Assembly: GCA_902809825.1 (NCBI GenBank) | Contig: LR778114.1 | Span: 1 to 64,000, forward strand | DNA: 64,000 nt | Origin: Candidatus Hydrogenisulfobacillus filiaventi | Lineage (GTDB): Bacteria > Bacillota > Sulfobacillia > Sulfobacillales > R501 | Direction: 5' to 3' | Made by a program: the position numbers and the translations under genes | Shown here: piece after piece, positions 24,108 to 32,810 of the stretch | How the letters are laid out: each line of letters starts with the position of its first letter | How positions within the stretch are numbered: position 1 is the stretch's first letter | Notes under the pieces: model-generated | Told to the model about the DNA's origin: nothing | Database searches by the model: none | The model's input: the letters and a program-made list of their open reading frames with translations, nothing else

Positions 24108-25289
24108 TCATCGGGCCCCGCGGGCCAGCTGCACCAGGCGCAGGGTGGCCAGGGCGGCCAGGACAGCGGCGGTCAGGAAGGCGGGCGGGGCGTGGAAGGC
24201 GCTCCACAGTCCGGTGACGAGGAGGTTGCCCGCCAGCTGTGCCAGGCCCAGACCGACCGCCAGGTAGCCGAAGCCCGCCCCCCGGGCTTCCGGGTTCAGG
24301 GTGCGCAGGATCCAAGGCTTCTGGGCCGTCTCCCAGAGGGCGGTGACCATCCCGGCGGCCACAAAGGCCAGGGCCCAGAGGGCCGGATGCACCCCCGGCA
24401 GTGCGAAGACGGCCAGGAGCAGCGTGGCGAGGCCCCCACCCAGGATCAGGGCGGACTCGGGGGTATGGCGGTCCACCCAGGCCCCCACCGGGAAGGCGGT
24501 CACCGCATAGGCCACGTTGTGGAGCACGTACAGGCCGACCGCCAGGGCCACGGCGGGGTGGCCCCCGGGCTGGCTGCGCTCTACGCGGAGGATGAAGAGG
24601 GTCGGGGCGACCCAGGCGAGCTGGAACTGAATGAGGGCGTGAGCGGTGCGGCGGAAGGCCGGCCCCAGAGGGACAAGCCGGTCCCTGTCGGCCGCGGGTG
24701 CGGACGACGGCGGGCGGGGGTGGATCCAGACGGCGACGGCCAGGAGCGCGGCCACCCCCGGGAGCGCGCTGAGCGCCAGCTGCGGGCGCAGGGCCAGGTG
24801 GGGGAGCAGCACCAGGGCCACCAGGGGGCCCAGCACCGCGCCGGCGGTGTCCCAGGCCTCCCGGAAGCCGAAAGCCTTGCCCCGGTGCTCCGCGGGGACC
24901 TCCTCCGCCAGCACGGTGTTGCGCAGGGGCCCGCGCAGGCCGCGGCCGATCCAGGCCAGGGTGCGCAGCACCACCACCCAGGGCCACAGGTAGACCCACG
25001 CCAGGCCGGCCTTCAGGGCGGTGGCCACGTAGCCCAGGAGGATCCAGGCCTGGCGGTGGAGGCTCCGGTCCGCCAGCTGGCCGCCCCACCAGCCCGCCAG
25101 GGCCTGGCCCAGGTTGGAAATCCCCTCTACTACGCCCAGCGCCACCGGCGGGGCGTCCAGGCCGGCAAGAAAGCCCGGCAAGAGCGCGGTGACCCACTCG
25201 TGGCCCAGGTCGGAGAAGAGGGAGGCCACGGAAAAGCCCACCACGGCGGGGGTTAGCCAGCGGACGCGCCCGCGCGGGTCTGCGGCCAT
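24108..25289 (-). CDS. MFS transporter
   Basis: 393 residues, 12 predicted helices. The helix 2-3 loop motif appears as GGQLADRSLHRQAW (family consensus GxLaDrxGrr), followed later by WVDRHTPESALIL at the equivalent loop in the second half, a clear major-facilitator duplication. Substrate unknown; several such proteins act as drug or metabolite exporters. GAAGGAGG precedes the ATG. It is next to a broken MarR gene, which fits exporter regulation. Confidence 0.85.
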   Translation of the reverse strand: MAADPRGRVRWLTPAVVGFSVASLFSDLGHEWVTALLPGFLAGLDAPPVALGVVEGISNLGQALAGWWGGQLADRSLHRQAWILLGYVATALKAGLAWVYLWPWVVVLRTLAWIGRGLRGPLRNTVLAEEVPAEHRGKAFGFREAWDTAGAVLGPLVALVLLPHLALRPQLALSALPGVAALLAVAVWIHPRPPSSAPAADRDRLVPLGPAFRRTAHALIQFQLAWVAPTLFILRVERSQPGGHPAVALAVGLYVLHNVAYAVTAFPVGAWVDRHTPESALILGGGLATLLLAVFALPGVHPALWALAFVAAGMVTALWETAQKPWILRTLNPEARGAGFGYLAVGLGLAQLAGNLLVTGLWSAFHAPPAFLTAAVLAALATLRLVQLARGAR

Positions 25290-25574
25290 GGGCGGCCTCC
25301 TTCCTCACCCTCCTGGCTCCGGCGGGTCCCCTGGACGCGCTCCGGCCGCCGGGCCGCAGGCACCTGCCCGGTCCCGGACCGCTTAGGGGATTGTCAGACG
25401 ACACCATCCACTAAACTAGGGCCCAGTCAAGTGCAATAGGGCGATGGAGGTCCGCCCAGGGCAGTGCTCGGCTGCCCTAAAGCGCCGCGAGGCTGATGGC
25501 TCCTGGTCACGGGTGTGGCCGGGAGCCTGTGCGTTTATACGCGCTCGGCTGGGCGGCCCTGGGAGGTGGTAGTG

Positions 25575-26519
25575 TTGGCCAACTGGCTCACCCAGCTCGC
25601 GCAGGTACTGTTTGTGCTGGGGTTTGCCCCCCTTCTCCGGGGACTGCTGGAGCGGTACAAGGCACGGCTGGCCGGGCGGCCCGGTCCCCCGGTGTGGCAG
25701 CCTTATCGGGACCTTCGCAAGTGGTGGCACAAGGAGACGGTGCGCACGCAGTCCAGCACCTGGATTGCCGGATTCGCGCCGGTAACTTACTTCCTTGCCC
25801 CACTAGTGGTCACCCTGCTCATCCCTGCGCTCACGGCCTTTCCACTGCCTCTGGCGTGGATGGGCGACATGCTGGCGGGGGGCATGATCCTGGGAGCCGG
25901 CGGCTTGAGCCTGCTCCTGGCGGCGCTGGATGCGGGGAGCGTCTATCCGGCCCTCGGGGTCAGCCGCATCCGCCTCATCGGGGTCTTCACGGAGCCGTTG
26001 GCCCTGCTGGTGGTGTTCGGCGCCGCCAGCGCCGCGGGCGCCACCATCCCCTTTGTGGTCAACCGCACCCTAACCGGTCCGGCCTGGCGATTCTCCCCCA
26101 CCCACGTCCTGCTGGTGGTCGCCTGGTTCCTGCTCCTCATTGCCGAGACCGGCCGCATCCCCGTGGACAACCCGTCCTCCACCCAGGAGCTGTCCCTCAT
26201 CGACCCGGCGCGCACCTTCGAGGCCAGTGGCCCCGACCTGGTCTTCTACGAGTGGGGCGGCTGGATGAAGTTCGTGGTCCTGAGCCTCATCCTCGTCAAC
26301 GTCCTCCTCACCCCGTGGGGGCTCGCCACCCGGGCGCAGCTGGGGGCTGTACTCGCGGCCATGGTGCTGGTGGGCTTCAAGATGCTGCTCCTGGGTCTCT
26401 TTCTGGTGACAGTGGAGGCGGGATTCGCCAAGCTGCGTCTGCTCCGCAATGTCGACTTTGTGGCGGTGGGCATCATGCTCGCGGCGCTGGGGGCGGTAGG
26501 GGCGATCTTCAGCCTCTAG
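25575..26519 (+). CDS. HyfC/HycD-like (NuoH-type) membrane subunit of Ehr complex
   Basis: 314-residue hydrophobic protein with about eight helices and the NuoH/HycD signature ETGRIPVDNPSSTQELSLID near residue 190, the loop that contacts the catalytic module. It also has WQPYRDLRKWWHKE after helix 1, typical of HyfC. The TTG at 25575 has GGGAGG (25561-25566) at 8 bases; GTG 25572 or 25566 are alternatives. First gene of a six-gene cluster encoding a proton-pumping complex related to group 4 hydrogenases. Confidence 0.88.
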   Translation: MANWLTQLAQVLFVLGFAPLLRGLLERYKARLAGRPGPPVWQPYRDLRKWWHKETVRTQSSTWIAGFAPVTYFLAPLVVTLLIPALTAFPLPLAWMGDMLAGGMILGAGGLSLLLAALDAGSVYPALGVSRIRLIGVFTEPLALLVVFGAASAAGATIPFVVNRTLTGPAWRFSPTHVLLVVAWFLLLIAETGRIPVDNPSSTQELSLIDPARTFEASGPDLVFYEWGGWMKFVVLSLILVNVLLTPWGLATRAQLGAVLAAMVLVGFKMLLLGLFLVTVEAGFAKLRLLRNVDFVAVGIMLAALGAVGAIFSL

Positions 26520-26633
26520 GTGGGCCCTCGGAGGGCCGGCCGACGGGCCGGCGGGGCCCCGCGCCGGCGGGTCCCGCGTGGTCCGGATGCCGGGTCCGGC
26601 TGGCCCGGCGCAGGCAGGGAAGGGGTGGCGACC

Positions 26634-27260
26634 ATGGTCACGCGCCTGGCGGTGGTGTTGATTTGGGCGGGTGCCGTCGGCCTGCTCCTGGTCCGCTCCC
26701 CGCACGGCGGGCGGCGCGTGTACCAGGCGATGGCGGCGGCCCAGGTGGTGCTCCTGGCCGAGCTGGCTTGGTGGGAACGGAACCTCGTCGGCGCCGGGGT
26801 GGTGGCGCTGGAAGCGGTGCTCAAGGTGGGGGTCGTGCCCTGGCTCTTAAGTCACGGGGCGCCCCTGGCGGAGGAGCAGTACGGGGCCCGGGGCATCTGG
26901 GGCGCCAGCGGGCTGGTGTGGGGGGCGCTCGGGTTCACAGGGTTAGGGCTCGCCAGCGGCTACCGGCTGGGCGTCCCGGCCTCGGGGCTGACGGGGGCGG
27001 TCCTCGCGGCGGGGTTGATCCTTCTGTGGGGGCTGGCGATGCGACGGGATCCCTGGGTTCAGGCGGTGCAGCTCCTGGCCCTGGACACGGTGCTCGGAGC
27101 TCTGGCCTTCCTCGCCCTGCAAGGCCTGCCTCCGGTCGCCGACGGCCTGGCACTGGCCGACCTGGTGGGGATGGCGGCCATCCTGGCCGCGCTGGAGCGG
27201 ACCAACCGCATCCGCTTCGGCGTGGTGGACACGACCCAGCTGAAGGAGTTGAAAGGATGA
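26634..27260 (+). CDS. HyfE-like (NuoK-type) membrane subunit of Ehr complex
   Basis: 208 residues, about six helices. Placement between HyfC-like and HyfF-like genes, size, and the family-like glutamate in a helix (ALEAVLKVGVVPWLL) support a hydrogenase-4 component E/NuoK-like subunit. The end matches HyfE (ERTNRIRFGVVDTTQLKELKG). ATG chosen because AAGGGG lies upstream. Its stop overlaps the next start as ATGA. Confidence 0.8.
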   Translation: MVTRLAVVLIWAGAVGLLLVRSPHGGRRVYQAMAAAQVVLLAELAWWERNLVGAGVVALEAVLKVGVVPWLLSHGAPLAEEQYGARGIWGASGLVWGALGFTGLGLASGYRLGVPASGLTGAVLAAGLILLWGLAMRRDPWVQAVQLLALDTVLGALAFLALQGLPPVADGLALADLVGMAAILAALERTNRIRFGVVDTTQLKELKG

Positions 27261-28660
27261 GGGTCCTGGCGGAGGTGTGGCCCGCGCTCATCCCGGCGGT
27301 CGCCGGCGCCTTCCAGTGGCGCGGCTGGCCGGCGCGCTGGTCCGTGTGGGTATGGGTGGAGGTGCTGGCGGGGTGGGCCGTGCTGCTGGTGAGCGCCCTG
27401 GGCGGGTTCCACCCGCCAGGGCCGCTGGCGACCTGGTACTTCTGGCCGGCGGAGGCCCTGGGCGGGCTGGCCTTGGCTGTGTCCCTCCCCTACATCCGGC
27501 GCGAGGCGGAGCGCGAAGGCTGGTCCCCCAGCCGGGTGCGGGGGTACTTCGCCCTCTTCTCCCTGTTCTGGGCCACGGTGCTGGGAATGGCACTGGTGCC
27601 GAACTACTTGGCCCTGTGGGCCGATGTCGAGGGCTCGACGGTGGCCTCGGTGCTCCTGGTGGCCGTACACGGTTACCGGCGCAGCGTGGAGGCGGCATGG
27701 AAGTACCTACTGGTGGCGGGCAGCGGCGGCCTGGTGGCCCTGGCGGGCCTGATCCTGACCCTTCATGGCCTGGGGCTGCCCTTGGGAGCCTGGTCCCTGC
27801 ATCCGCGGCCCGTGGCCCCGGTCCGAGGCGGGGAAACGGCCCTGGGCCTCGTCCTGGCGGTGGTGGGCTTCGGTACGAAGGCGGGCCTGGCTCCCTTCCA
27901 CACCTGGCTCCCCGACGCGCACAGCGAGGCGCCGGCGCCGGTGTCGGCCCTGCTCTCGGGCGTGGAGCTGGCCGGGGCGGCGCTGGTGCTGCTCCGGCTC
28001 CTCCGCCTGGCTCCCGCTCCGGCGGCGGGCCTGGCGCACGGCCTGCTGGTGGGGATGGGACTCCTGTCCCTGGCCGTGGCAGCGGGGGCAATGGGGTTTC
28101 AGACCGACCTGAAGCGCCTGTGGGCCTATTCCTCCATTGAGCACATGGGCCTCATCGCCCTCGGCTTCGGATTCGGGGGAGTGGCTCTGGTCGGGGCGCT
28201 CCTCCACATCTGGACGCACGCCGTCACCAAGACCCTGCTCTTCTACGACGCCGGGCAGGTGCGGCTGGCCTACGGGGGCTCCACCCTCGGCCGTGCCCGC
28301 GGGGTACTCCGCCAGCTGCCCTGGACGGGGGGGCTCCTGGGCCTGGGGGCCGCCGCCATCGTGGGGTTGCCCCCCTTCGCCCCCTTCTGGAGCGAGTGGC
28401 TCATCCTGGCCGGCGGCTTCTCCCGTTCCCCCTGGGCGGCGGGCATCGCCCTGGCCTTGTTGATGGGCGCCTTCATCGCCATCGGCCGCCGGGTTCCCGT
28501 GTGGCTATTTGGGGGCCGGACGGCGGTATGGGAAGGGGAGCGCTGGGCACTGGTGGTCCCCATGCTGGTGCTGGCGGCGGCAGTGACGGGGGGCGGGGTC
28601 GGTTTCGCCGCCGCGCTGCAGCACACGGTCCTGGCGACCCGCACGGCGTGGGTGCCTTAA
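27257..28660 (+). CDS. HyfF-like antiporter-type (NuoM/N) subunit of Ehr complex
   Basis: 467 residues, about 14 helices. The antiporter-family core is intact: GTKAGLAPFHTWLPDAHSEA with the essential lysine near residue 207, PVSALLSG, and the second lysine region FQTDLKRLWAYSSIEHMGL near 290. This is a proton-pumping subunit. It starts inside the ATGA overlap with the HyfE-like gene. Confidence 0.92.
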   Translation: MRVLAEVWPALIPAVAGAFQWRGWPARWSVWVWVEVLAGWAVLLVSALGGFHPPGPLATWYFWPAEALGGLALAVSLPYIRREAEREGWSPSRVRGYFALFSLFWATVLGMALVPNYLALWADVEGSTVASVLLVAVHGYRRSVEAAWKYLLVAGSGGLVALAGLILTLHGLGLPLGAWSLHPRPVAPVRGGETALGLVLAVVGFGTKAGLAPFHTWLPDAHSEAPAPVSALLSGVELAGAALVLLRLLRLAPAPAAGLAHGLLVGMGLLSLAVAAGAMGFQTDLKRLWAYSSIEHMGLIALGFGFGGVALVGALLHIWTHAVTKTLLFYDAGQVRLAYGGSTLGRARGVLRQLPWTGGLLGLGAAAIVGLPPFAPFWSEWLILAGGFSRSPWAAGIALALLMGAFIAIGRRVPVWLFGGRTAVWEGERWALVVPMLVLAAAVTGGGVGFAAALQHTVLATRTAWVP

Positions 28661-28689
28661 GGGACTGCAAGACCGGGAGGGTGGCGACG

Positions 28690-30069
28690 TTGGCGTGGAC
28701 GTGGTTGGACCCCGATATGTGGGCGGCGACGTTGTGGCGGGAGCGCGAAGCCGGGGGCGAGCTGCTCCTGCTGGCACCGGTGCCCGGCGGCATGGCGGCC
28801 TGGGTTGACCGGGGCGGAACTCTGCGCGCTTGGGCGCGCCCGTGGAAGGGGGAGGCGGTGCCCCGTCTCTCCGCCCGCGGCTTTGGGGAAGCCCGCGCCC
28901 TGGAGGCCGACTTGGCGCGCGACCACGACGTGGCCTGGGAGGGAGGCGCCCCGGACAAGCCAATCACCGGCACCGGGGTGTTCGTCTACCCCCTGGGCCC
29001 CGTGCACGGCGATGTCTCGGAAAGCCTGCTCTACCGCCTGGCGGTCCTGGGGGACGAGATCCTGGGCCTGGATGTGGTGGCGGGATTCAAGCACCGCCAC
29101 CTGGCGGAACGGGTGCGGGGCCGGGATCCGGCCTGGGCGGCCCGCTTGGCGGGCCTGACCACCGGCACCTCCACGGTCGCCCACACCTGGGCCGCCAGCG
29201 CCGCCCTCGAGGCTGCCCTGGACTGGCCCGTGGCGGAAGCGGCGCGGCACCTGAGACCGGTGGCGGCGGAGGTGGAGCGCATTGCCAGCCACCTGGGAGA
29301 CCTGGCCCAGCTGGCGGCGGCCACCGGGCTGCCGGTGGCGCAGATGGACCTCCTGCGGCTGAAAGCGCGGGTGCTGGACTGGGCCGGCTGCTGGGCGGGC
29401 CACCGCTACCTCCGGGGCCTCATCGCCCCCGGAGGCATGGCCCGAGCGCCGGCCGCCGATGCCCTGGCCCAGGGACAGACGGTGCTGGCGGAGGTGGAAG
29501 AGCGGGCCCGCACCGCCGTGGCCCGGCTAGACGCCACCGCCTCGTTCTTGGACCGGTTGCACGGCGCGGGGCGCATCCCGGAGACGGTGGCGGCGGCCGT
29601 CCGGCCCCTGGGGCCGGTGGGTCGCGCCTCCGGGCATGCCTACGACGCCCGCGCCGGCGGCGGGCCCGCGGCCTACGGCCGGCGGACCCCCGGCTGGGCG
29701 GCGGTGTTGGAACGGGACGGGGACGCCTGGGCCCGCTACCGGGTGCGAGTGCAGGAGCTGTGGGTGTCGCTGGCACTGGTGCGCCGGGCCCTGGCCGACG
29801 GGGTGAGGTGCGGGGAAGGGCGCTGGCACCTGCCGGCACCGGACCCCGCTGGCAGCGGCACCGGGTTTGCGGTGGTGGAGGGCCCGCGGGGGGCCGTCGC
29901 CTACGCCGTGACGGTGGAGGACGGCCGGGTCGCTGGCTGGACGGTGGCGACGCCTTCGCAGCGCAACTGGGGGGTGGTGCCGGCGGCGATGGCCAACGGC
30001 AACATCCTGCAGGACTTCCCCATCATCGATGCCAGCTTCCACCTCTCGGTGGCGGGATGGGACCGGTAA
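28690..30069 (+). CDS. ehrL: EhrL: hydrogenase-type large subunit lacking NiFe ligands
   Basis: 459 residues; related to HycE/HyfG and NuoCD, with a short NuoC-like N-terminus and large-subunit fold (LGPVHGDVSESLLYRLAVLG; EVERIASHLGDLAQLAAATG). The first NiFe ligand motif (RxCGxC...H) is replaced by RLAGLTTGTSTVAH (152-165), and the C-terminal DPCxxC is replaced by IDASFHLS. No CxxC exists in the protein. It therefore cannot hold a NiFe centre. This matches energy-converting hydrogenase-related (Ehr) complexes. The TTG start 28690 has GGGAGG at nine bases. The redox or substrate partner is unknown. Confidence 0.85.
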   Translation: MAWTWLDPDMWAATLWREREAGGELLLLAPVPGGMAAWVDRGGTLRAWARPWKGEAVPRLSARGFGEARALEADLARDHDVAWEGGAPDKPITGTGVFVYPLGPVHGDVSESLLYRLAVLGDEILGLDVVAGFKHRHLAERVRGRDPAWAARLAGLTTGTSTVAHTWAASAALEAALDWPVAEAARHLRPVAAEVERIASHLGDLAQLAAATGLPVAQMDLLRLKARVLDWAGCWAGHRYLRGLIAPGGMARAPAADALAQGQTVLAEVEERARTAVARLDATASFLDRLHGAGRIPETVAAAVRPLGPVGRASGHAYDARAGGGPAAYGRRTPGWAAVLERDGDAWARYRVRVQELWVSLALVRRALADGVRCGEGRWHLPAPDPAGSGTGFAVVEGPRGAVAYAVTVEDGRVAGWTVATPSQRNWGVVPAAMANGNILQDFPIIDASFHLSVAGWDR

Positions 30070-30160
30070 CGCAATCCTGTCTGCTACCCGCTCCGTCCCG
30101 GTCCGGGGAAGCGCCGGCGGCCGGGACACACGTGAAGAGACCGGAAAGGACGGTGCCGGG

Positions 30161-30697
30161 ATGTACTACTGGGGCTGGATCCGCAACCTGGCGGCCCGGG
30201 CGCGCGCGGTTCCGCCCACCGCCCTCTGGGCGGAGGCCCAGAGGGCGGTGGAGGCCCGTTTCACCCTCCCGGGCCCGCTTCGGCGGTCGCTGGCCGTGCG
30301 CCACGTCGACGGCGGGTCGTGCAACGGCTGCGAGTCGGAGCTCAGCCTGCTGCCCAGCCCGGTATACGACTTCAGCCGCTTCGGGTTCGTGTTCACGCCC
30401 TCCCCGCGTCATGCCGACGTGCTGGTAGTGACCGGGGTGATCACCCCGGCGTTGGCCCCCGTCATTGCCCGGGTGTACGGGGAGATGCCGGGGCCGAAGG
30501 CGGTGGTGGCGGCGGGCGACTGCGCCCTCGGGCGCGGGGAACTGGGCGAGGCGGGGTGGGAGAGACTGGAAACACTGGCGCCGGTGGCGGTGCGGGTAGC
30601 CGGCTGCCCGCCTTCGCCGGACGCCCTGCTGGCGGCCCTGCTGGCGGTTGCCGGCCGCCTGGGGGAACCGGACGGGTCGGGGGGGGATGGCGAGTGA
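30161..30697 (+). CDS. ehrS: EhrS: NuoB-like small subunit of Ehr complex
   Basis: 178 residues, homologous to NuoB/HyfI. The four ligands of the proximal [4Fe-4S] cluster are all present: C54 and C57 (GSCNGCESE), C121 (GDCALG) and C149 (GCPPSP). So the electron-transfer centre nearest the active site is kept even though the large subunit has lost its metals. ATG 30161 follows GAAAGGA. Stop overlaps the next gene by one base. Confidence 0.9.
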   Translation: MYYWGWIRNLAARARAVPPTALWAEAQRAVEARFTLPGPLRRSLAVRHVDGGSCNGCESELSLLPSPVYDFSRFGFVFTPSPRHADVLVVTGVITPALAPVIARVYGEMPGPKAVVAAGDCALGRGELGEAGWERLETLAPVAVRVAGCPPSPDALLAALLAVAGRLGEPDGSGGDGE

Positions 30698-32763
30698 TGA
30701 CCGCAGGAATGGTGATGGGGCTTTGGGGCCTGTTTCTGGCCCTGAGCCTGGGCGTGGGCGCGGCCGGCGGCCGCCGGCTTCTCCCCACCGCGGTGGCGCT
30801 GGGGGGCGCCGGCCTGGCCGGGGAGGGGGTGCTGCTGGCGGCGGGGCAGCTCCTCCCCAGCCGCGTGGCCCTGCCGGCACCGTTCCCGGCCCTGCACTGG
30901 GGGCCGGGACTGGTCGGGGCGGGGGTCTGGGGTGCGGTCGGGGGGGGCCTCTTCCTGGCCGCCGGCCTCTGGCTGCTGCAGACCGAGGGGGGCGTGGCCG
31001 TGGCCTGGGCGCTGATTCCCCTGGAGGCGGCGGTGGGGGCCTACCTCCTGAGCGACGACGGCTGGTCCCTGCTGGCCAGCTGGGAACTGGTGTCCACCCT
31101 GGCTTACCTGGGACTGGTCACCAGCCGCACCCAGGCCAAGGTCCTGCGCGTGGGCTGGGTGCTGCTGGCCTTGTCCGAGTTTGGCGGGGTCCTCCTCTTG
31201 GGGGCCCTGCTGCTGCTGATGCCGGCCCCGGCGCACGGCCATCTGGAGGCCGGGTTCACGACCCTGGCCCGGGTGGGGGCGGGGCTCAGTCCGGGGCTCC
31301 GCCTCACCCTGGCCCTGGCTGTGCTCCTTGCCTTCGGGGTCAAGGCGGGGCTGTTTCCGGTCATGGTGTGGATGCCAATGGCGGAGCCGGAGGCACCCGG
31401 GGTCGTGGCCGGGCTGTTTTCCGGGCTGTTGAGCCCCCTGGCGCTGGTGGGCCTAGTGAGCACTTGGCGGCTCCTAGGTCCCCTGGGCGGGGCCTGGGGG
31501 CAGGCCTGGGGGTGGACCCTGGTAGTGCTCGGCGTGGCCGGGGCCCTCTCTGCAGCCCTCTACGGCATGTTGGAGCGGGATGTGAAGCGGGTCCTGGCCT
31601 ACTCCACTCTGGAGGTGCTCGGGGTGGCGTTCGCGGGGCTGGGGACCGGCCTGTTGACGGCGCAGGCGGGGAACCCCGTGGCGGCGGCGCTGGCCGCCGA
31701 CGGGGCCTGGGTGCTGCTGCTGACGCACGCCGGGGCCAAGTTCGTGCTCTTCGTCCTGGGTGACGAAGTGGCCGGCCGCCTCGGCCGCCGGTTGGACCGT
31801 CTGGGCGGGGTGACCCGGGTGGCCCCCGGGCGGGGCGCGCTGGCCCTGTTAGGGGTGCTGGCCCTGGCGGCGGTGCCGCCCACTGGCGGCTTCGTCGGGG
31901 AGTGGATGGTGTTTGAGGGCATCCTCATGCCCCTGCACGCCGACCCCGTGCGCCACCTCCTGCTGATGGCGGCCGGTGCCGGGCTGGCCCTGGCCACGGC
32001 CCTGGGGGTGACCCTGTACCTGCGCTGGTACGGGTGGACCTTCCTGGGACCCCGGTGGGCTTGGCGGACGGAGGCTCCGCCGGCGTTCCCCCCGTTGGGC
32101 GGGCTGCGCGGAACCGGGCTGGGCCTTGCCGCTCTGCCTGTCTTGATTGCCGGGCCCGGGATTCCCTGGCTCCTACCGGTGGTGGAACACGGCTTCACCT
32201 GGTGGCGGTCGGCGGCACCCGTCCTCATTGCTCCTACCCTAGTGCGGCCGGCCAGCGCCGCGCCTCTGGTGGCCATCGGCGCGAACCTGGTGCCGGCACC
32301 CGGGGCCGCCGGCACGGTCTTCTTCCCGGCGGCTTTCTCCGTAGGCGATCCCTACGTGCTGTTCTGGGTCGCGGTGGCGCTGTTTGCGGTGGTGGTGGGG
32401 ATGCGGCGGGTAACGGGCCGCCACCGCGTGCGGCGCGTGCCGGCCTGGACGGGGGGCGCCCTGCCGGCCGGGCCTCCGTTCGTGTTCAGCGCCGAGGGGA
32501 TGGTGCACCCCCTGCGCCTGGCCTTCGCGGCCTTCTTTGGCCTGCGGCGGTGGCGCGAGGAGCGGGACGAGGCCCGCTACTACCGGCACACCGTCGTCTA
32601 CCGGCTGGAGGCCCACGTCTACGCCCCCCTGGTCCGGGCCGCGCGGGCGCTGGCGCGGGTGCTGCGCTCGGTGCAGTCCGGGGACGTGAACTGGTACCTC
32701 GGCCTGCTCCTGGTAGCGGTCACCGGGGCGCTGCTGGCGTTCAACCTGGGCTGGCTGCCCTGA
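30697..32763 (+). CDS. HyfB-like (NuoL-type) antiporter subunit of Ehr complex
   Basis: 688 residues, about 15-16 helices. Antiporter motifs: FGVKAGLFPVMVWMPMAEPE with lysine near residue 212, GVVAGLFSGLLSP, and ERDVKRVLAYSTLEVLGVAF. Length agrees with HyfB. It overlaps the ehrS stop codon by one base (TGATG). A strong terminator follows. With the HyfF-like protein, the complex has two antiporter-type pumps. Confidence 0.9.
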   Translation: MTAGMVMGLWGLFLALSLGVGAAGGRRLLPTAVALGGAGLAGEGVLLAAGQLLPSRVALPAPFPALHWGPGLVGAGVWGAVGGGLFLAAGLWLLQTEGGVAVAWALIPLEAAVGAYLLSDDGWSLLASWELVSTLAYLGLVTSRTQAKVLRVGWVLLALSEFGGVLLLGALLLLMPAPAHGHLEAGFTTLARVGAGLSPGLRLTLALAVLLAFGVKAGLFPVMVWMPMAEPEAPGVVAGLFSGLLSPLALVGLVSTWRLLGPLGGAWGQAWGWTLVVLGVAGALSAALYGMLERDVKRVLAYSTLEVLGVAFAGLGTGLLTAQAGNPVAAALAADGAWVLLLTHAGAKFVLFVLGDEVAGRLGRRLDRLGGVTRVAPGRGALALLGVLALAAVPPTGGFVGEWMVFEGILMPLHADPVRHLLLMAAGAGLALATALGVTLYLRWYGWTFLGPRWAWRTEAPPAFPPLGGLRGTGLGLAALPVLIAGPGIPWLLPVVEHGFTWWRSAAPVLIAPTLVRPASAAPLVAIGANLVPAPGAAGTVFFPAAFSVGDPYVLFWVAVALFAVVVGMRRVTGRHRVRRVPAWTGGALPAGPPFVFSAEGMVHPLRLAFAAFFGLRRWREERDEARYYRHTVVYRLEAHVYAPLVRAARALARVLRSVQSGDVNWYLGLLLVAVTGALLAFNLGWLP

Positions 32764-32777
32764 CAGCGGCCGCCGGC

Positions 32778-32810
32778 GGGCGGGGTCCGGCACGCGGGCC
32801 CCGCCCTTTC
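32778..32810 (+). terminator. Rho-independent terminator after the Ehr operon
   Basis: GGGCGGGG (32778-32785) pairs with CCCCGCCC (32799-32806), loop of 13, followed by TTTC. Fifteen bases after the last stop codon. Confidence 0.75.

Follow-up and report, generated by a model that had tools for sequence, protein, structure and literature searches.

Energy-converting hydrogenase-related (Ehr) complexes have been reported in many bacteria and in some archaea, and their function is called unknown in the literature examined. A six-gene complex of this kind, without hydrogenase motifs, was found in every Sulfobacillus species studied by Justice et al. (2014), who likened it to Ehr and left its function unknown (PMC4378227). 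The ehr clusters of Geobacter and these group 4-like complexes of Sulfobacillus have the same six subunits, and the same loss of the nickel-iron (NiFe) motifs (PMC4378227), as the cluster described here, which lies at positions 25575–32763 of a 64,000-nucleotide window from Candidatus Hydrogenisulfobacillus filiaventi (contig LR778114.1, positions 1 to 64,000); the Sulfobacillus members belong to the same family and the same order. Since the Sulfobacillus complex was published in 2014 (PMC4378227), the bare observation is not new. Linkage to a fluoride riboswitch is, by contrast, unreported in the Ehr literature examined, and in the present data it is confined to a single Ehr clade and absent from HyfB-first types.

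Two further systems bear on the comparison. The formate hydrogenlyase and hydrogenase 4 of Escherichia coli (HycE, HyfG) provide the closest structural match to the large subunit (7z0s_E) and agree with the window's complex in the types of membrane subunit and in the proton path. The membrane-bound sulfane sulfur reductase (MBS) of Pyrococcus likewise combines proton machinery like that of complex I with the loss of its NiFe site. From the side of the riboswitch, 'formate hydrogen lyase' is listed as a common target of the fluoride riboswitch, or crcB motif (Weinberg 2010, PMC2864571; reviewed in PMC11139923), and the review groups this target with shifts to anaerobic, fermentative metabolism.

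The strongest functional clue to the window's cluster lies in its 5' leader and was missed by a first-pass annotation of the window, which was confined to coding genes. A fluoride riboswitch aptamer (RF01734, crcB motif) was found on the forward strand at 25431–25512, 63 bases upstream of the hyfC start; its cmscan score of 32.4 bits (E 2.9e-7) is slightly below the curated cut-off of 34, and the aptamer core and pseudoknot strands are present despite this. It is the sole fluoride riboswitch match in the genome, whose closed chromosome measures 2.57 Mb and which belongs to the same order as Sulfobacillus. In the minimum free energy fold of the leader, a 13-bp hairpin on the same strand (25498–25527), a candidate off-state element, occupies the 3' pseudoknot strand of the aptamer (GGCUCC), and it is longer than hairpins in shuffled leaders (p 0.02). 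An on-switch would be expected to have this arrangement of an aptamer followed by a competing hairpin; T-runs follow the hairpin in several relatives, and the one in the window is weak. Control of the operon by a fluoride riboswitch, as predicted from these features, is well supported.

The association extends throughout the order. A co-directional fluoride riboswitch lies upstream, at a nearly fixed distance, of 33 of the 36 clusters of the window's type (type A); the genomes of the relatives are mostly drafts, and one of the three misses (G008) begins at a contig end. In the sister type, type B, the switch precedes 11 of 13 clusters, the misses being G057, where the switch stands closer to the cluster, and a cluster in tandem behind a switched one. 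The same test in the same order gave no fluoride riboswitch upstream of any of 17 clusters of type C, the HyfB-first Ehr with an ArsR-like gene upstream at most loci examined, or of any of 35 NuoD loci. None was detected in two members of the order without a type A cluster (G016, G017) or at six HyfB-first proteobacterial clusters, and a further 30 Bacillota genomes that encode four-Cys or SESG proteins have none close to the cluster. Beyond this order, Ehr genes with the switch in front of them were found in Burkholderia, Caballeronia, Mycobacterium branderi and Alicyclobacillus. All switch-linked large subunits, which come from Bacillota, Actinomycetota and Pseudomonadota, group in a single clade (support 100/99), and the tree shows one change of the trait; the counts therefore represent one origin with strong retention and not dozens of independent events. 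On a plasmid of Alicyclobacillus sp. ALC3, we also observed a lone Ehr large-subunit gene (L094:8393–10095) that follows a fluoride riboswitch of its own; within 9 kb no further Ehr subunit was detected, and the surrounding region is rich in fluoride riboswitches, DUF190 and CrcB.

The large subunit of the window's complex (28681–30069, forward strand) consists of a NuoC-like and a HycE-like part. We took the ligand and proton-path positions of HycE from the structure paper of the E. coli formate hydrogenlyase (PMC9474812) and mapped them onto 22 type A sequences. All four NiFe ligands are replaced, HycE C241, C244, C531 and C534 corresponding to T161, S164, S456 and G459 in the window. The first position is Thr and the second Ser in all 22 sequences, the third is Ser in 19 and Ala in three, and the fourth is Gly in 19 and Ala in three. 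The canopy Asp529 of HycE is also gone (His454 in the window), and the 32-residue stretch after the C-terminal motif of HycE is missing, leaving no C-terminal maturation extension. In contrast to the ligands, the proton-gate Glu193, Ser283, His284, Glu437 and the canopy Arg478 are kept in 22 of 22 sequences (E114, S203, H204, E359 and R403 in the window), and the position of Arg395 holds Arg in 17 and Lys in five. The predicted structure was poor in both motif regions (mean predicted local distance difference test score 60.8, with the C-terminus below 30), and only its overall fold was used.

The loss of both NiFe motifs reported by the first-pass annotation is thus borne out. Its pairing was right for the N-terminal motif (RxCGxC) and off by a few residues for the second, where it had set IDASFHLS against DPCxxC; in a gap-free alignment, DPCYSC faces H454-L-S-V-A-G459, a little further downstream. 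A sequencing error or frameshift at the motifs was ruled out, because the same replacements occur in all 22 type A relatives compared. The window's cell can probably make NiFe enzymes, since two HypD genes and two NiFe hydrogenase large-subunit loci are found elsewhere in its genome, along with two NuoD loci. The six-gene Ehr complex itself is not a NiFe enzyme.

Trees of the large subunit, computed with the motif columns removed, place the window protein within an Ehr superclade (100/100) that is sister to true HycE/HyfG and far from NuoD, and which also contains proteins with all four Cys. Membership in NuoD was thereby ruled out. The Ehr precedent proposed earlier agrees with this placement, and neither of the positions that had been named as speaking against it, in NuoD or inside the true HycE/HyfG, was recovered. 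The best tree points to several independent losses of the NiFe ligands, but the alternative of one loss was not rejected (approximately unbiased test, p 0.355) and we make no claim for more than one. Of the 38 genomes from the order with a completeness of 80% or more, 35 contain a type A cluster. HypD was present in 17 of 18 genomes with four-Cys proteins, 6 of 13 in the SESG/CCFC group, 5 of 16 with type C and 6 of 35 with type A; the p values for the four-Cys genomes against each other group, about 0.004 or less, are uncorrected for relatedness.

Type C large subunits (L067–L073; for example L071:9255–10706) retain three of the four Cys of the NiFe site and have an Asp as well (RxCGxDxVSH ... 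ELCYSC), and HypD was undetectable in 11 of the 16 type C genomes; a metal site other than NiFe(CN)2CO is possible in these proteins. In genome G052, a cyclic di-AMP riboswitch (L066:2795–2918, 80.9 bits) stands directly before a HyfB-first Ehr cluster whose large subunit has four Cys.

The remaining subunits of the window's complex are a small subunit and four membrane subunits of putative proton-pump type. Gene and domain analysis confirmed the coordinates and order given by the first-pass annotation: the six genes are all on the forward strand, closely spaced and partly overlapping. The first, with a TTG start, encodes a HyfC/HycD/NuoH-like membrane anchor (25575–26519; Pfam NADHdh, E 1.6e-25). 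The second product (26634–27260) matched nothing in Pfam or NCBIfam and is HyfE-like by position and by its match to the gene at the same position in type A relatives. There follow a HyfF-like antiporter-type subunit (27257–28660; Proton_antipo_M, E 1.2e-44; hydrogenase 4 subunit F, E 6.7e-73), the large subunit, a NuoB-like small subunit (30161–30697; Oxidored_q6, E 1e-20; fold match to 6cfw_J and complex I subunits), whose start is backed by an MYYW conserved among relatives, and a HyfB-like antiporter-type subunit (30697–32763; Proton_antipo_M, E 2e-28; hydrogenase 4 subunit B, E 1.5e-68). The HyfF-like and HyfB-like subunits retain their key Glu and Lys; together with the lost ligands and the kept proton path, this upholds the earlier view that the pump remains and that the active site is not that of a hydrogenase. 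A terminator-like hairpin lies 3' of hyfB on the same strand (32778–32806; 12-pair stem, 11 G-C), as a consensus match only, and the number of such hairpins in the region is not above that in shuffles.

As the first-pass annotation had stated, the small subunit carries all four Cys of the proximal 4Fe-4S cluster, with the CxxC spacing of HycG, and no NuoI-like ferredoxin subunit is present in the cluster or recurs beside it in relatives. The check for partner genes proposed at the same time gave no conserved electron-donor gene nearby among about 25 loci. The proximal ligands are retained in nearly all Ehr members compared. Type B small subunits (L055, L056, L060, L061, L063–L065) additionally have an N-terminal ferredoxin-like CxxCxxC stretch, absent from types A and C, which is possibly a built-in electron entry site. 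All four proximal Cys are lost on plasmids of M. branderi (L095:9165–9956, NDDA) and Allomeiothermus silvanus (L155:6647–7684, TDES), and the rest of the complex is kept despite this, both in the switch-linked M. branderi and in Meiothermus, where no switch was found; judged by their sequences, these would be relatives of complex I in which the canonical path for electrons is interrupted. In the type A small subunits of one genus (L056:10151–10696, L058:8997–9548), Ser replaces the first proximal Cys, leaving three Cys as in MBS.

Genes with known links to fluoride surround many of these clusters. DUF190 and CrcB genes adjoin the Ehr clusters of many relatives, a Burkholderia plasmid cluster is flanked by an inorganic diphosphatase, a HAD hydrolase, DUF190 and crcB, and a Mycobacterium plasmid cluster has enolase and DUF190 alongside; enolase and pyrophosphatase are fluoride-linked genes (PMC11139923). 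In two genera (G013, G028), a CLC-family gene lies 3' of hyfB on the same strand (L053:5063–6463, L167:14600–16108) and is probably part of the same fluoride-switched operon. CrcB was undetected in at least 13 genomes that bear type A; in three of these, drafts that are 95–97% complete (G003, G018, G025), CLC was undetected as well, and in two of the three (G018, G025) the only fluoride riboswitch is that of the Ehr operon. In the window genome, a CrcB pair and DUF190 lie at 1.70 Mb, where no riboswitch was detected. DUF190 adjoins the Ehr cluster in 11 of the 21 DUF190-bearing genomes of the order; we set it aside as a subunit or general partner, the window's copy being about 0.9 Mb away around the circle, and treat it as fluoride context. 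Beside the operon, a divergent major facilitator superfamily transporter (24108–25289, reverse strand) resembles (E 8.7e-11) a gene of the same superfamily near the M. branderi plasmid Ehr cluster (L095), and may possibly be a fluoride-linked transporter.

Entry of hydrogen fluoride (HF) lowers the pH and the proton-motive force, on which fluoride exporters depend, and Na+/H+ antiporters are the commonest riboswitch-linked class after the exporters themselves (PMC11139923). A complex that is induced by fluoride and translocates protons fits this setting. The explanation we favour, with confidence that is about even, is that the Ehr complex sustains pH and membrane potential in this way during HF influx. 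HF would diffuse into the cell and release H+ and F-, acidifying the cell and running down the membrane potential on which fluoride exporters rely. Binding of cytoplasmic fluoride would stabilise the aptamer pseudoknot, the competing hairpin would be blocked and the operon would be read. Protons would then move outward via HyfF, HyfB and HyfC, with Glu114 as the putative proton gate. The driving force would most likely be an electron flow that starts at a soluble donor, crosses the small subunit by way of its one 4Fe-4S cluster and ends at an acceptor located where the NiFe site used to be. The gene anatomy, the lost ligands, the kept pump and proton-path residues and the riboswitch linkage confined to one clade are observed; that fluoride induces the operon in vivo, that protons are pumped, that a donor and an acceptor take part and that the cell benefits is what we infer from them.

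Several points weigh against this explanation. The aptamer of the window is sub-threshold, and no candidate was identified for either the electron donor or the acceptor. Moreover, M. branderi is switch-linked yet lacks the four proximal Cys, so that the redox step cannot be general.

The loss of those Cys, which suggests that redox chemistry is dispensable in M. branderi, is one of the arguments for direct export of fluoride, in which the Thr/Ser hydroxyls of the former NiFe pocket, or an antiporter-like subunit, would bind F- or HF in a manner coupled to proton flow. Riboswitch control of the operon, the invariance of T161, T163 and S164 in type A, and the drafts without detected CrcB or CLC whose sole fluoride riboswitch is on the Ehr operon (G018, G025) point in the same direction. 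We nevertheless consider direct export improbable, as CrcB or CLC is also found in most genomes, drafts may miss genes, and the Thr/Ser pattern is absent from type B; no complex I relative is known to carry halides.

We give a similarly small chance to a redox bypass, in which ferredoxin or a different carrier would supply electrons to menaquinone or to some other common acceptor, with fluoride control explained by a fluoride-sensitive parallel enzyme and pumping being secondary. It would account for the proximal 4Fe-4S ligands retained in nearly all members and for the extra iron-sulfur stretch in type B and some other small subunits, and that nearly all members of this aerobic order have the complex suggests a common acceptor. 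However, the complex I quinone ligands Nqo4 H38 and Y87 have no equivalents in the aligned large subunit, their positions being taken by S113 (Ala or Ser in type A) and by G162 or other small residues, and no conserved donor gene is found nearby.

Reduction of sulfane sulfur as in MBS, with the proximal 4Fe-4S cluster as catalyst, is a good deal less likely still. The habitat of the order is rich in sulfur, the NiFe site is lost in both complexes and two relatives have only three proximal Cys (L056, L058). The catalytic proximal cluster of MBS has three Cys, however, and MBS has Mrp subunits, extra iron-sulfur clusters and no equivalent of the proton-gate E21; the window's complex has four Cys at HycG spacing, the gate Glu (E114, in 22 of 22 sequences) and no subunit for medial and distal clusters. 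Such an activity would also leave the fluoride switch unexplained.

A true formate hydrogenlyase or hydrogenase that aids a shift to fermentation, as the naming in fluoride-riboswitch lists would have it, is hardly credible, since similarity to HycE in sequence and fold, and HypD and two NiFe hydrogenase loci elsewhere in the window genome, are set against loss of the four ligands and the canopy Asp in all type A, the missing maturation extension and HypD in so few type A genomes. The cluster differs from formate hydrogenlyase also in having no HycB/HycF-type subunit, and no formate dehydrogenase is present in the cluster or recurs nearby, the rest of the window genome not having been searched for one. 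We infer that the published 'formate hydrogen lyase' targets are very probably clusters of the same kind as the Ehr cluster described here. Every riboswitch-linked large subunit examined, across three phyla, lacks the four-Cys NiFe site, and a shift to fermentation is therefore not the explanation for the switch.

A bolder proposal, which we put forward tentatively and with clearly less confidence than the favoured explanation, is that the complex is a fluoride-resistance machine of the complex I superfamily with a rebuilt NiFe pocket, extruding fluoride or powering its export, and that it may be the main riboswitch-controlled defence in genomes without CrcB and CLC. The presence of a fluoride riboswitch before one whole Ehr clade offers a concrete and cheap test of the role of the complex. 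If the proposed link to fluoride is true, the known means of fluoride defence, CrcB, CLC and Na+/H+ antiporters, would gain a further member: a complex I relative that carries out energised proton pumping or exports ions.

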